Assembly (NCBI RefSeq): GCF_041346925.1
Contig: NZ_CP166840.1
Location: forward strand, 2,044,501 to 2,108,500
Reading direction: 5' to 3'
Origin: Agaribacterium sp. ZY112
GTDB taxonomy: Bacteria > Pseudomonadota > Gammaproteobacteria > Pseudomonadales > Cellvibrionaceae
DNA: 64,000 nucleotides
Of this stretch, positions 31,119 through 35,721 are shown piece after piece. The number at the start of each line of letters is the position of its first letter. Position 1 is the first letter of the stretch. A model generated the notes under the pieces. The model made no database searches, was not told where the DNA came from, and saw only the letters and a list, made by a program, of their open reading frames with translations. A program made the translations under genes and the position numbers.

Positions 31119-31826
31119 ATGGCTGGGGCAAATCTTCAGCGTGCTTATGTTCTGCACCTAAAGCCTTATACCGATAGCAAAAAGCTTGTACGACTCTTTT
31201 CATACGATGAAGGCTGCCTTGACGCTGTTGCTAGGCCTAGTAAGCGTTGGCCTGCTTTAGAGCCTTTTATTCCCTTTTTATGTCATGTGAGTGGAAAAAC
31301 TCAGGGTCTTAAAAATTTACGAGCGGCCGAGATTCAAGATTCGACACCTAGGCTGCAGGGCCATGCTCTGTTTTGCGCCTTGTACCTTAATGAATTGCTC
31401 GCTAGAGCCTTACCTGTCGGCCAAGCTGTGCAATCAATATTCGAAGCCTATGAAGAAACAATAAAAAAATTAGAAGGCTCTCATGCTGATGCAGCACTGC
31501 TGCAGGTTTTACTTCGGCGTTTTGAGTTCAGCCTATTAAGGGAGCTGGGTTTCGCTGTAGAGCTACTGAGTTGCGCTAATGGCAGCAAAGTCATTAATAG
31601 CTGTACAGCGTTTTATACTTTTCGGCTTGGCTTCGGCTTTATACCTTGCGCTTTACATGAGCAAAACAGTACCAACCCTACGCTATTCCATGGCGAGGTC
31701 TTACATGCCATTGCCGAGCAGCAATGGAGTTCACGTAGCCTATCAGCGGCAAAGCGTTTAAGTCGCTTAGCCCTGCCAATGCTAATCGGCTCGGAACCGC
31801 TAAAAGCTCGTGAGTTATTTGTTTAA
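31119..31826 (+). CDS. recO: DNA repair protein RecO
   Basis: It loads RecA onto SSB-coated DNA with RecR. The 235 residues have an N-terminal OB-fold (QRAYVLHLKPYTDSKKLVRLFS) and a helical C-terminal domain. It lacks the tidy CxxC zinc motif found in some phyla, as usual in this class. The start lies 2 bp after era. pdxJ, which often follows, is absent here; the next gene is on the other strand. Confidence 0.92.
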   Translation: MAGANLQRAYVLHLKPYTDSKKLVRLFSYDEGCLDAVARPSKRWPALEPFIPFLCHVSGKTQGLKNLRAAEIQDSTPRLQGHALFCALYLNELLARALPVGQAVQSIFEAYEETIKKLEGSHADAALLQVLLRRFEFSLLRELGFAVELLSCANGSKVINSCTAFYTFRLGFGFIPCALHEQNSTNPTLFHGEVLHAIAEQQWSSRSLSAAKRLSRLALPMLIGSEPLKARELFV

Positions 31827-31890: not shown

Positions 31891-34692
31891 TTATTCCAGT
31901 GAAAAAAGCACTTCCAAATCATGTTCAGACGACCAGCTAACAAGCTCCTTCATTTTTTGGTACATCTTTTTTAGGTCGTTTGCATCACACAGTTCAGTTT
32001 GTTTTAGCTGGGTATCAACACATTTAACGGCGGCTTTAAGTTCGGGTACACCACAATAACAACAGGCACCATGCAGTCTGTGTACTAGTTCGTAAAGCTC
32101 ATCGTAGCGGCCTTCTCTGGAGGCTTTTTCCATAAGAGGCTGCTCTTGTTGGATGCTTTCTATGAGCATCTTAATCATGTCAAAAGCCAGTTGGGCGTCA
32201 TTTTTAGTTAGCTCTAAGCTCTCACCAATGTTGACGGGGCTGCTTGTTGTTTTGTCTATAGTGGCGACAGTTTTTTTATTTTGAGTACTATGTTTAGTCG
32301 TCTTAGGTTTTTCATTGATGCGTTTGTTTTTATTACTAATGACCCAGCGATCGATCACAAGGCCTATGGATTTCTCTGTTAGTGGTTTGCTAATGAAGTC
32401 GTCCATGCCTGCTAGTAACAACTTGCTGCGCTCTTCTCTTATATCGTGAGCGGTTAGTGCAACAATCGGAGTTCGTCGATCGCTGTTTTCATCGCGACGG
32501 ATACGCATGGTGGTTTCAAAGCCATCTAAGTCGGGTAGCTGGATATCCATAAATACTAAGTCATAACACTGGGATAAACAGCGATCGATGGCGCTTTTCC
32601 CATCTACAGCTACTTCAACTTCTGCGTTAAAGCTTTCTAAGAGTGCACATGCAACTTTTGTATTCGCAGGCGTATCATCGACGACTAAGATCTTCATCTG
32701 GTTTGCAGACGCCGTTTTACTAAAGCCTTTTTCATTGTTGGTACTTACGATGCCGAGTTGGTCTAATAAACCTCGGCGAAGGCGAGCGGTTTGCAGTGGA
32801 TGTTGAGCGATAAAGGCGTCACAGTCACCTAGAATTTTTTGTACGTTTTCGTGTTGTCCCATTGGTGACATGACAACGGTTGGTATTTCTAATTCATCTC
32901 TTAAGTTCTTTACCGTTTGAGCAAGTAAAATTTTATCTAAGGCTCTTAAGGATGTTTGTGCTTCTATCACGGCCAGAGGGATGTAGCGCGCGTGCTTGAG
33001 GGCTTCATCACGCAAGCGTTTTGCTTGTGTGAGGATATCGGCAAATACGTTTGCTCGTCGATTATTAATACCTAGTTCGGTAAGCCTAGATGTAAGTTCT
33101 TTGTAGGCTCGATCTCCAGTGGTAAATACCAAGGCATGAACTTGATAACCAGGCGCTGCTATTTTATTGGGGCTTACTGCGGTACCATCGAGTTTTAAAC
33201 TGAGGGCAAAGCGGAAGCCGCTATGCTCTGCTTGCTCATTAATATGGATCTTCCCTTGCATGTGTTCCGCGATACCTTTTGCAATAGAGAGACCTATACG
33301 TGCACCAGAATAAAATCGAGGGTCATGACTACTCGCGCTAGGGCTGGTGCTCCATCGGCTTAACTCTTCAGGCAATTCACCATCGGTATTAACGTAGATA
33401 TTGATGTCTATTTTAGACGCGTGTTGCTTTTGCAGCTCTGCAACAATTTCTACATAACTTGCGTGTTCAAATTTAATTGCATTACTAACTAAATTAGATA
33501 GCACTTGCTGAATACGCAAGGGGTCACTCAGCACATTAGTGGGAATACGTTGATCAATGTGGCTATAGAGTTTTATCTCTCGCTCTAAGGAGAATGGTGC
33601 TTGTAGTTGCAGGGTCTCTTCAATATTGTGGCGTAGATCAACTACTTTACTTTCAACCTGAAGTTTTCCGCTTTCAAGTCGCGAGAAATCATGAATATCA
33701 CTGACAATCGTCAGCATGCCTTTGGTGCTTTCGTCGATGGTATTTATATAATCTTTTTGTTCCGGAGTAAGCGCCGTCTTTTGTAGTAGCTCTGAAAATC
33801 CTAGTATGCCACTTAGTGGTGTACGTAAATCTTGGCTGGTTTTCTTTAGGAATTCGGATTTGAGCCGATTCATTTCAACCGCATTTTTTCTAGCGATATC
33901 TAAATCAATATTTTGTACTTCAACCGTTTCGAGAGTCTCTCTTAGCTCTGCGCCAGCGTTTTCAACGCTTTTGCGCAGTTCCATTTCTTTTTCAATTTGG
34001 ATTGTGATATTGGCATTAAGTTGGTGTAAAAGTGGGGCAAATATGCCGCTATTGGACAGAGCTAACGGTGATATTTCTCGGCTTCTGTTTTTCTGAAATA
34101 ACTCATCCGACAGACGGGTGAGAGGAGAAAAAATATCTCTATTTAATTTTCTCCAAAATAGGATGGAAAACAAGATAACACCAAGGCCAATTAAGCTGGT
34201 GGCAAAAAGGTATTGTAGGTTTAGCAGTGATAACGACGTTTTGTCTATCGTGGTGATAAGCCATGTGTTTTGGCCCTTCATTAGGTACCAAGGTCTACTT
34301 AGGTGTAGTTGCTCATCATGTTGCCATGAGCTTTCTGTTCGATAGCGAAGACCAATGTCTTTGCCGTGGATTGGGAGTCCGCGCTCAAAAAGTTTTTTCC
34401 CCCGTGCATCAACCAAGGTTAATGATAGGAAATCATCAATGGTTAATAAGGTATGCGCTTTTTGTTCTAGGTTGGCAATTAGCTCGGCATCATTTTTGGG
34501 CGCTTGCTGGGTGGGGCTCAGCAATAGGTCATTAAGCTGTACGCTGCGCGCTAACATGGTGTCTAAGCGTTGCTGGTGGAGTAAGAAGAACAGGCTGGCA
34601 ATACCAAAGCTAATAACCAATACCATGCCGATGGCGGTACTGCTTAACTGCCATAAGGGCTGGTCTAGGGTGGCCTCGCGGGTTTGGGCCAT
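31891..34692 (-). CDS. gacS: GacS/BarA-type hybrid sensor with degenerate kinase core
   Basis: The 933-residue protein has the BarA/GacS layout: two membrane helices (about 17-38 and 160-180) around a periplasmic domain, a linker and coiled coil (230-275), a HisKA-like region (about 275-345), an ATPase-like domain (to about 500), a degenerate central module, a receiver (667-780) and a C-terminal Hpt (about 830-925). The receiver is complete (D672/D673, D716, T747, K769) and the Hpt has H871 in HRLHGACCYCG. However, the HisKA phosphoacceptor is Gln287 (FLKKTSQDLRTPL; codon CAA at 33832-33834). N404 of the N-box remains, but the DxGxG box reads NTDGEL and the G2 box SGARIGL. It is thus probably a pseudokinase that passes on phosphate from another kinase. 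It sits beside cysM-relA-mazG, the pseudomonad gacS site. Confidence 0.85.
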   Translation of the reverse strand: MAQTREATLDQPLWQLSSTAIGMVLVISFGIASLFFLLHQQRLDTMLARSVQLNDLLLSPTQQAPKNDAELIANLEQKAHTLLTIDDFLSLTLVDARGKKLFERGLPIHGKDIGLRYRTESSWQHDEQLHLSRPWYLMKGQNTWLITTIDKTSLSLLNLQYLFATSLIGLGVILFSILFWRKLNRDIFSPLTRLSDELFQKNRSREISPLALSNSGIFAPLLHQLNANITIQIEKEMELRKSVENAGAELRETLETVEVQNIDLDIARKNAVEMNRLKSEFLKKTSQDLRTPLSGILGFSELLQKTALTPEQKDYINTIDESTKGMLTIVSDIHDFSRLESGKLQVESKVVDLRHNIEETLQLQAPFSLEREIKLYSHIDQRIPTNVLSDPLRIQQVLSNLVSNAIKFEHASYVEIVAELQKQHASKIDINIYVNTDGELPEELSRWSTSPSASSHDPRFYSGARIGLSIAKGIAEHMQGKIHINEQAEHSGFRFALSLKLDGTAVSPNKIAAPGYQVHALVFTTGDRAYKELTSRLTELGINNRRANVFADILTQAKRLRDEALKHARYIPLAVIEAQTSLRALDKILLAQTVKNLRDELEIPTVVMSPMGQHENVQKILGDCDAFIAQHPLQTARLRRGLLDQLGIVSTNNEKGFSKTASANQMKILVVDDTPANTKVACALLESFNAEVEVAVDGKSAIDRCLSQCYDLVFMDIQLPDLDGFETTMRIRRDENSDRRTPIVALTAHDIREERSKLLLAGMDDFISKPLTEKSIGLVIDRWVISNKNKRINEKPKTTKHSTQNKKTVATIDKTTSSPVNIGESLELTKNDAQLAFDMIKMLIESIQQEQPLMEKASREGRYDELYELVHRLHGACCYCGVPELKAAVKCVDTQLKQTELCDANDLKKMYQKMKELVSWSSEHDLEVLFSLE

Positions 34693-34827
34693 AACTATTA
34701 CTCCGAAATCTCACTGCAAAGCGCTAATTTAGCGCGCTTTTACTGCTTGAGCCAGTTTTAGACCTATAGAGCTGGCTTGAGCTTGGGCCTAAGGCTAAAA
34801 TACTCGACTTTAATTAGAGGTTTGGCC

Positions 34828-35721
34828 GTGTCTAGCTCTTTTGTAAGCATTGAAGACTGTGTTGGTAATACGCCCTTAGTGCGTTTACAGCGCTTGCCGG
34901 GTACGGAAAACAATGATGTGCTCTTGAAGCTTGAGGGGAATAACCCCGCAGGTTCAGTTAAAGACCGGCCTGCAATGTCGATGATTGCACGCGCTGAGTC
35001 TCGTGGTGATATTACACCCGGTGATAGTTTGATTGAGGCCACCAGTGGCAATACCGGTATTGCGTTAGCGATGGCTGCAGCGGTTAAAGGCTATGCGATG
35101 ACGCTTATCATGCCTGACAATGCTACCGAGGAGCGAAAAGCTTCGATGAAAGCCTATGGTGCTGAACTTATCCTTGTTAGTAAAGAAGAGGGTATGGAAG
35201 GGGCCCGAGACCTAGCTTTGCAAATGCAAGCTGAAGGTAAAGGTCGAGTATTGAACCAATTTGGCAATAGTGACAACCCTCTTGCTCATTATGAAGGGAC
35301 AGGGCCTGAAATTTGGCAGCAAAGTGAAGGTCGCATCACTCATTTTGTTAGCTCTATGGGGACAACAGGCACTATTGTCGGTTGTTCACGTTATTTAAAA
35401 GAGCAAAACCCAAATATACGCATTATTGGCTTACAGCCTGATGAGGGAGCAAGTATTCCGGGTATTCGGCGCTGGCCAGAAGCCTATATGCCAGACATCT
35501 TCAGTGATGAACATATCGATGAGGTCAGTCTTGTCAGTCAGCACCTAGCAGAGCAAACAATGCGTGATCTGGCTCGTAAAGAAGGTATCTTTTGTGGTGT
35601 GAGTTCTGGGGCCGCGGTTGCTACTGCCTTGAGTGTTGCTCAGCAAGTTTCGAATGCGGTGATTGTCGCTATTGTATGTGACCGAGGTGATCGCTACCTT
35701 TCGTCTGGGCTTTTTAATTGA
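34828..35721 (+). CDS. cysM: Cysteine synthase B
   Basis: This PLP enzyme makes cysteine from O-acetylserine and sulfide (or thiosulfate, giving S-sulfocysteine). The 297 residues carry the PLP lysine in NPAGSVKDRPA, the EATSGNTGIALA phosphate loop and FCGVSSGAAVAT. The start is GTG 34828, with AGAGG 7 nt upstream, giving the conserved IEDCVGNTPLVRL near the N-terminus; the in-frame ATG at 34777 adds an unlikely leader. It is divergent from gacS. In pseudomonads rlmD sits between cysM and relA; here relA follows directly. Confidence 0.94.
   Translation: MSSSFVSIEDCVGNTPLVRLQRLPGTENNDVLLKLEGNNPAGSVKDRPAMSMIARAESRGDITPGDSLIEATSGNTGIALAMAAAVKGYAMTLIMPDNATEERKASMKAYGAELILVSKEEGMEGARDLALQMQAEGKGRVLNQFGNSDNPLAHYEGTGPEIWQQSEGRITHFVSSMGTTGTIVGCSRYLKEQNPNIRIIGLQPDEGASIPGIRRWPEAYMPDIFSDEHIDEVSLVSQHLAEQTMRDLARKEGIFCGVSSGAAVATALSVAQQVSNAVIVAIVCDRGDRYLSSGLFN

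Follow-up and report, generated by a model that had tools for sequence, protein, structure and literature searches.

A GacS orthologue of Agaribacterium without the phosphoacceptor histidine as a probable phosphorelay protein

Glutamine at the phosphoacceptor site of GacS

GacS and GacA form a global switch of the gamma-proteobacteria, and the locus described here touches the question of whether GacS is a sensor modulated by other kinases or a hub for histidine phosphotransfer (Hpt) to which a kinase happens to be attached. The locus lies in a stretch of 64,000 nucleotides from Agaribacterium sp. ZY112 (contig NZ_CP166840.1, positions 2,044,501 to 2,108,500; hereafter the window) and contains the gacS/barA orthologue of this genome, a degenerate hybrid histidine kinase, FLKKTSQDLRTPL, in which the HisKA phosphoacceptor position is occupied by Gln287 (codon CAA, 33834-33832). 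A sequence-only reading of the window had singled out this residue, and alignment with orthologues upheld it: Gln is fixed in all four genomes of the genus, whereas His is found in 123 of the 136 orthologues aligned (Gln in four, Arg in one, Glu in one and no residue in seven). The proteins of the three genus-mates are 48–62% identical to the window protein, and because the four separate genomes share Gln287, chance and an error of sequencing or assembly are ruled out as its source. We propose that GacS in this genus is probably a relay, that is, a phosphotransfer protein that receives its phosphate from other hybrid kinases.

Because the N box is intact, the ATP site is better described as degenerate than as erased. 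The stretch aligned with the G1 box (D-x-G-x-G) reads T-D-G-E-L, with Thr for Asp and Leu for the final Gly, and G2 reads SGARIGL against the canonical GGTGLGL. Across the genus the G1 Asp is lost in 4/4 proteins (Thr or Cys instead) and so is the final G1 Gly (4/4). The sequence-only reading had listed the canonical ATP boxes as lacking, which is right for G1 and G2 but not for the N box (NLVSNAIKF); its statement that the phosphorelay residues of the receiver (REC) and Hpt domains are intact (Table 1) agrees with the alignment.

By descent the protein belongs with Pseudomonas aeruginosa GacS and Escherichia coli BarA, sharing their locus, their two hydrophobic segments, their HisKA–HATPase–REC–Hpt order and a partner GacA with its Asp54. 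In its kinase residues it differs from them: the phosphoacceptor His is absent, and of the three ATP boxes only the N box is preserved. HisKA (at 71 bits), HATPase_c (at 52 bits), REC and Hpt all pass their Pfam cut-offs, and no HAMP domain is recognized; together with hydrophobicity and predicted structure this gives the order transmembrane segment (TM)–sensor–TM–HisKA–HATPase_c–REC–Hpt. The score against the NCBIfam BarA model NF008318 is 478 bits, under the curated cut-off of 890, although a relative with all kinase motifs (G034) also falls below it at 695. A predicted model built from 33 sequences has a mean predicted local distance difference test score (pLDDT) of 80.5 and keeps a strand and helix order like that of the ATP domain (CA); pLDDT drops under 50 at residues 450–461, directly before the degenerate G2 box, and at 246–261, within what we take to be the signalling helix (S helix). 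Among the structures that it matches best are P. aeruginosa GacS (7z8n, 37% identity) and the RetS–GacS complex of the dimerization domain (DHp), 7n0e.

The gene lies between recO and cysM-relA-mazG (names from inspection of the sequence), of which the sequence-only reading had recognized cysM-relA-mazG as a gacS neighbourhood. cysM adjoins gacS in 118 of 120 fetched loci, the other two ending at a contig or region limit, and recO is found on the far side in many relatives, not all. The window genome (G000) is a single contig of 4.28 Mb in which no second intact GacS was seen, the best other whole-protein match being only 29% identical. Eleven distant hybrid kinases returned by the search for related loci were left out of the analysis.

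Within the genus, a DHp that cannot be phosphorylated at the usual site is constrained by selection to the same degree as in motif-complete kinases, whereas CA looks relaxed. A kinase is called motif-complete here if it has the His and its N, G1 and G2 boxes each match a regular expression; agreement at these residues therefore follows from the definition and is no evidence of activity. Mean identity in the genus is 83% in the S helix, 85% in DHp, 49% in CA, 57% in REC and 48% in Hpt. The motif-complete genera g2, g5, g14, g23 and g29 have 86–93% in DHp and 62–89% in CA, although the values for two other motif-complete pairs are smaller (g26, 79 and 72%; g32, 70 and 51%), so that a low CA value is not unique to the genus. 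For four of the six genus pairs the nonsynonymous divergence (dN) of DHp is 0.06–0.15 with synonymous sites saturated (pS 0.84–0.93); dN of CA is 0.35–0.55 in four genus pairs against 0.07–0.24 in six motif-complete pairs, which are unmatched for divergence. We also counted departures, defined as new residues fixed in the genus at sites where 95% or more of the motif-complete kinases have one residue in common. The genus has eight (E263D, A283K, N284K, H287Q, E288D, L326M, I330V and L334H), compared with 0–2 in ten motif-complete genera of at least two members and 1–2 in the degenerate genera g4, g11 and g18. Single-species rows reach as many or more, however (10 in motif-complete G015, 18 and 23 in degenerate G032 and G023), so the count may partly reflect branch length.

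Kinase states across the family

A REC–Hpt query (E <= 1e-25) found a match in 131 of 144 genomes of the family, and 130 of these (G164 was left out) plus six genomes of the order that belong to other families make up the 136 proteins compared. The 130 family proteins comprise 63 motif-complete ones, 54 that retain the His with at least one degenerate ATP box, six that have lost the His (Gln in four, Glu in G032, Arg in G023), six that lack the whole kinase and consist of REC and Hpt only, and one with a split frame. This last, from G064 (L093), is two overlapping frames of 476 and 516 amino acids, either a sequencing error or a real frameshift, and was left unclassed. All six proteins from outside the family are motif-complete. 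Only degenerate or deleted forms occur in 12 of 29 genera and, bar G064 in g2, only motif-complete forms in the other 17. Of the output residues, the Hpt His, the receiver Lys and Asp673 are present in all 136 proteins and Asp716 in 134.

Erosion is uneven among the degenerate forms. The G1 Asp is retained in 45 of the 54 proteins that keep the His but have a degenerate ATP box, and 45 of the 54 also fall in one genus, g4, whose proteins look less eroded; some of these may still bind ATP. G019, counted as motif-complete, is without the Glu that follows the phosphoacceptor His. Full-length but degenerate kinases account for 60 of the 130 family proteins, and 59 of them carry an E/DxxT motif. 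In two degenerate proteins of 799–805 amino acids (L083 and L084, from G009 and G033), about 130 residues under the usual length, CA and REC are nearly adjacent and the receiver-like region between them seems to have been lost along with the ATP boxes.

Nothing of the kinase is left in six forms. The gene between recO and cysM in G059, G060, G018 and G030, and that adjacent to cysM in G005 and G036, encodes REC and Hpt only, within a range of 299–419 amino acids. Two closely spaced hydrophobic segments precede REC–Hpt in G005, G036 and G059; there are none in G060, G018 and G030, which leaves a soluble REC–Hpt protein. The receivers of G060 and G018 score below the Pfam cut-off, and these soluble proteins of 299–303 amino acids (L090, L091) have lost the receiver Asp and kept the Hpt His, which would fit direct loading of Hpt. 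As gacS of these relatives has been reduced to REC–Hpt, an outside source of phosphate is the simplest reading, and they appear to show that the relay form is stable in nature. No such truncation was seen outside the family: all 68 matches from other families, at E <= 1e-35 in 194 sampled genomes of the order, are at least 899 amino acids long, a comparison of frame lengths alone.

A tree of CysM and partial RelA was made by a quick method from 82 rows of the 136 (g2 and g4 were thinned, and G091 and G162, without both genes, were dropped). Parsimony requires at least seven changes between motif-complete and degenerate, or nine when four states are distinguished, and nine groups that are wholly degenerate can be read from it by eye: g4+g24, g18, g3+g16, G023, G030, G032, g11, g7+g31 and g1. 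The tree is weakly resolved, with 28 of 79 inner branches weak and two of six outgroup rows (G039 and G052) placed inside the family, and parsimony on it gives no direction of change. Because the outgroup proteins are motif-complete and a regain of lost catalytic residues is unlikely, repeated loss of the GacS kinase is the natural reading, with seven changes as a minimum on a weak tree.

GacA has been kept alongside these forms. It was found in 54 of 60 genomes tested (UvrY query, E <= 1e-35), including all 50 with a gacS match, among them the sampled degenerate and deleted lineages; of the ten without a gacS match, six lack it (three in g10, two in g22, one in g9). The association is significant (Fisher p = 4e-6), a value uncorrected for kinship, and the six genomes lacking both come from three genera. 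The phosphoacceptor Asp54 is present in all 35 family GacA proteins read. The GacA matches in G015 and G033 run through a stop codon, their open frames being 216 and 223 amino acids. gacA of the window genome (G000:C1:3153284-3153904) has uvrC-like and pgsA-like neighbours by inspection, as has E. coli uvrY, and CsrA was found in 31 of 32 genomes. Genomes in which neither gacS nor GacA was found are G012, G147 and G150 (g10), G024 and G058 (g22) and G011 (g9), the last also without a CsrA match; these are apparent losses of the whole pathway, and some of the assemblies are incomplete.

A proposed relay fed by other kinases, and its alternatives

In the relay that we propose, the window protein would be a GacS by descent whose own kinase step has been retired: with the usual DHp His missing there would be no phosphorylation at that site, the ATP site being degenerate as well, and GacS would persist in the membrane as a phosphotransfer protein. 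Phosphate would be put on Asp716 of its REC, on His871 of its Hpt or on both by at least one other hybrid kinase. GacA would then receive the phosphoryl group from His871 on its Asp54 and act on the Csr/Rsm system. From the sequences we infer that the protein does not autophosphorylate and that phosphate flows in this direction, and likewise that a donor exists and which kinase it may be. The earlier proposal of a conserved, non-decaying pseudokinase that keeps its phosphorelay output is supported by the fixation of Gln287, the constraint on DHp, the Hpt His in every protein of the set and the retention of GacA.

There are precedents in Pseudomonas. The relay of P. aeruginosa runs from H1 and D1 of LadS to H2 of GacS and D2 of GacA, and a GacS with H1 changed from His to Gln gave a lower output, the remainder of which still needed LadS and the H2 His of GacS (PMC4866733). 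Deletion of ladS in the H1-Gln background reduced output by the same amount as losing the H2 His did, which argues that LadS signals through H2, and the H2 domain alone was enough for LadS signalling (PMC4866733). In Pseudomonas brassicacearum, a kinase-dead GacS with a foreign receiver restored wild-type phenotypes, but failed once the receiver's own kinase was removed, as did a chimera without the receiver Asp; the authors infer transfer of phosphate onto the chimera receiver by another hybrid kinase (PMC8175716). These two studies indicate that GacS without its kinase activity can serve as a relay inside the living cell, and the form in the window genus would be a natural counterpart of the laboratory-made one. 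The Hpt His of GacS and GacA itself are both present in the window genome. The systems differ in that P. aeruginosa GacS is itself active, whereas the change in the window genus is natural and fixed, and in that the window genome has no match to the 7TMR-DISM domain.

The window genome holds 36 HisKA and 14 Hpt matches. Eleven of its HisKA proteins besides GacS were examined, and five (L276–L280, with the N-terminal ends of L277 and L280 missing from the fetched stretch) have HisKA, HATPase_c and REC and no Pfam Hpt. Over DHp and CA, the three closest of these to a motif-complete GacS are L277 (47% identity), L276 (45%) and L278 (43%). LadS was rejected as the donor: 7TMR-DISM has no match in either G000 or G003, and it is present in G001 and G002 at the level of a domain match.

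Several points weigh against this relay. Its donor in the window genome is known as candidates only (L276–L280), and 7TMR-DISM (PF07695), the LadS-type sensor, has no match in G000 and G003 or in the kinase-deleted G005 and G036. The Pseudomonas studies also record that the H1 change to Gln lowered expression of rsmY and rsmZ in P. aeruginosa (PMC4866733) and that the donor kinase of the chimera had no phenotype of its own (PMC8175716), so a dead GacS was not equivalent to a live one there. Nucleotide binding is possible, since the N box of the genus is intact and G2 of G001, SGAGMGL, is nearly canonical. RcsD, also without the His, is reported to autophosphorylate in vitro (PMC3762810), and for this reason sequence alone cannot settle autophosphorylation. 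Four genomes (G080, G142, G102 and G113) carry GacA without a gacS match, and no rsm RNA was found by an Rfam scan of the window and by GacA-box/GGA scans of the window genome, although this is weak evidence because rsm RNAs diverge fast. Finally, a role as a relay and nothing else leaves the conservation of the S helix and DHp unexplained, and their retention suggests an extra role, either heterodimerization or phosphatase action.

One explanation for the constraint is that the protein acts as a phosphatase or drain only, with D288-x-x-T291 of DHp acting on phospho-REC and GacS removing phosphate through His871 and Asp716, while the phosphorylation of GacA comes from another source, such as acetyl phosphate. 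The E/DxxT motif is associated with phosphatase activity in this family of kinases, and its presence in 59 of 60 full-length degenerate kinases, the strongly constrained DHp and the intact REC of the genus are what such a role would call for. We nevertheless consider it unlikely, as the kinase-deleted lineages are without DHp, and two of them without a functional REC, and still keep Hpt and GacA.

Another possibility is that GacS is a dead subunit of a heteromeric kinase, in which the S helix and DHp dimerize with an active hybrid kinase, the periplasmic sensor of GacS gates the complex, and the partner's phosphoryl group reaches the REC and Hpt of GacS. Within the genus no part of the protein is better conserved than the S helix and DHp, although the His is missing, both hydrophobic segments are kept, and the solved RetS–GacS DHp complex 7n0e ranks with the best structural matches. 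Seven of the eight departures lie on the two DHp helices, near the former His by a helix-register reading without distances; against this, the ten departures of motif-complete G015 make the count partly one of branch length. No partner is known, the kinase-deleted relatives manage without DHp, and the two parts are equally conserved in motif-complete genera, so that this arrangement seems quite improbable on its own. It would be very surprising if the protein were instead an unconventional active kinase that still uses ATP with another acceptor, such as His334 on the second DHp helix. The Asn and Lys of the N box are intact, His334 is fixed in 4/4 proteins and the report on RcsD (PMC3762810) allows for a kinase of this type, but both G1 losses are shared by the whole genus and CA has the raised dN given above. 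Plain decay of an unneeded gene is rejected, as it already was by the sequence-only reading on account of the intact frame. CA does evolve more quickly than in the majority of the motif-complete pairs compared (that of the very diverged g32 pair has a similarly low identity), but DHp is under strong purifying selection, the frame is open in 4/4 genomes, dN of DHp stays low at saturated synonymous divergence, and the Hpt His and most REC residues are kept.

The relay reading also bears on the family as a whole. A wider version, which we put forward tentatively and hold to be less likely than not to be right in full, would have the kinase retired many times independently by a graded erosion (of ATP boxes, His, the whole kinase, the membrane part and the receiver) that spares the Hpt His and GacA, with the DHp of the window genus rebuilt around Gln287, Lys283/284 and His334 as a non-catalytic heteromeric subunit that steers the signal of an active hybrid kinase into GacA. 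The survey yields a series of intermediates from a sensor kinase to a bare phosphotransfer protein, and evolution seems to have repeated the experiment in which the kinase goes while Hpt and GacA stay. If this is true, automatic annotation may misread many genomes, given the number of full-length but degenerate proteins, and these species would be natural systems for finding the outside kinases that feed GacA.

Phosphotransfer proteins with a kinase-like domain that lacks the His are already known. RcsD of enterobacteria is not known to have a receiver domain and is encoded beside rcsB, at the rcsDB locus. The window protein has a REC, and its recO-gacS-cysM locus and its partner are other than those of RcsD, which is a convergent analogue and not a relative. 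DivL, as we presume it to be named, and RetS are kinase-like proteins whose folds are both among the structural matches of the predicted model; to our knowledge neither carries the Hpt of a GacA-type pathway. PMC4211667 and, for RetS, PMC12189002 describe them as acting on other kinases or sensing phosphorylation, and RcsD is presented in PMC3762810 and PMC12189002 as a sensor-like membrane protein whose kinase-like domain lacks the His and whose Hpt feeds a response regulator. A Teredinibacter genome paper gives the ordinary state of GacS for that organism, with H302, D720 and H878 (PMC2699552). No report of natural kinase loss in GacS was found among the titles and abstract openings of the openly licensed PMC literature.

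Output RNAs and features of the locus

The sequence-only reading had suggested looking for gacA and rsm RNAs in the genome; gacA was found, with the Asp54 kept in the GacA proteins read, and the scans for rsm RNAs found none. Rfam at gathering scores has no rsm match in the window, and up to E = 1 none in five of six loci with a perfect GacA box (L267 was left out). Palindromes within one mismatch of the GacA box number 15 in G000 against one for a reversed control, 6 against 2 in G001 and 7 against 0 in G003. The single perfect box of G000 was rejected as an rsm site, since it sits in a long pntA-like frame (by inspection). A GGA scan of 14 of the 15 G000 sites (that at 2391350, inside hybrid kinase L276, was left out) gave no RNA-like GGA-rich stretch, and the richest site, L289 with 7 GGA, was rejected as lying inside a frame that looks coding.

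Coordinates of the features are collected in Table 1. The receiver-like region listed there is presumably the 'ND' of the GacS literature. That name also appears in a legend of PMC12189002.

Table 1. Features of the gacS locus in the window
Feature	Position	Strand	Basis
gacS/barA orthologue, degenerate hybrid histidine kinase, 933 aa	31891..34692	-	frame without internal stop; Pfam domains; cysM adjacent in 118/120 fetched relatives
CAA codon of Gln287, site of the phosphoacceptor His	33832..33834	-	Gln in 4/4 genus genomes, His in 123/136 orthologues
S helix (name presumed), aa 246-272	33877..33957	-	83% mean identity inside the genus
DHp, aa 270-345; D288 and T291 of the E/DxxT motif kept	33658..33885	-	strong conservation
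His334, second DHp helix, genus-fixed in place of Leu	33691..33693	-	Leu in 68/69 motif-complete relatives
N box NLVSNAIKF, aa 400-408, intact	33469..33495	-	sequence and alignment
G1 box, degenerate, TDGEL, aa 436-440	33373..33387	-	sequence and alignment
G2 box, degenerate, SGARIGL, aa 462-468	33289..33309	-	sequence and alignment
Receiver-like region between CA and REC, aa 515-655	32728..33150	-	predicted alternating strands and helices
REC, aa 664-790; D672, D673, D716, T747, K769 intact	32323..32703	-	Pfam and alignment
Hpt, aa 838-931, with His871 (codon 32080-32082)	31900..32181	-	Pfam; His in 136/136 proteins
cysM, syntenic neighbour, used for orthology and tree	34777..35721	+	inspection of sequence
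recO, neighbour on the opposite side	31119..31826	+	here and in many relatives

Two further observations concern the output pathway in other genomes. In G030, whose gacS is REC–Hpt only, a perfect GacA-box-like palindrome lies between hisB and a divergent gene (L266:1100-1518, minus strand) and is followed by about 340 nucleotides with 10 GGA where about 5 are expected, a possible rsm-type RNA; the stretch folds no better than its shuffles, and a perfect box just upstream of hisB occurs in 0 of 29 other genomes. G006 has nine CsrA-family matches, eight of which score under the first.

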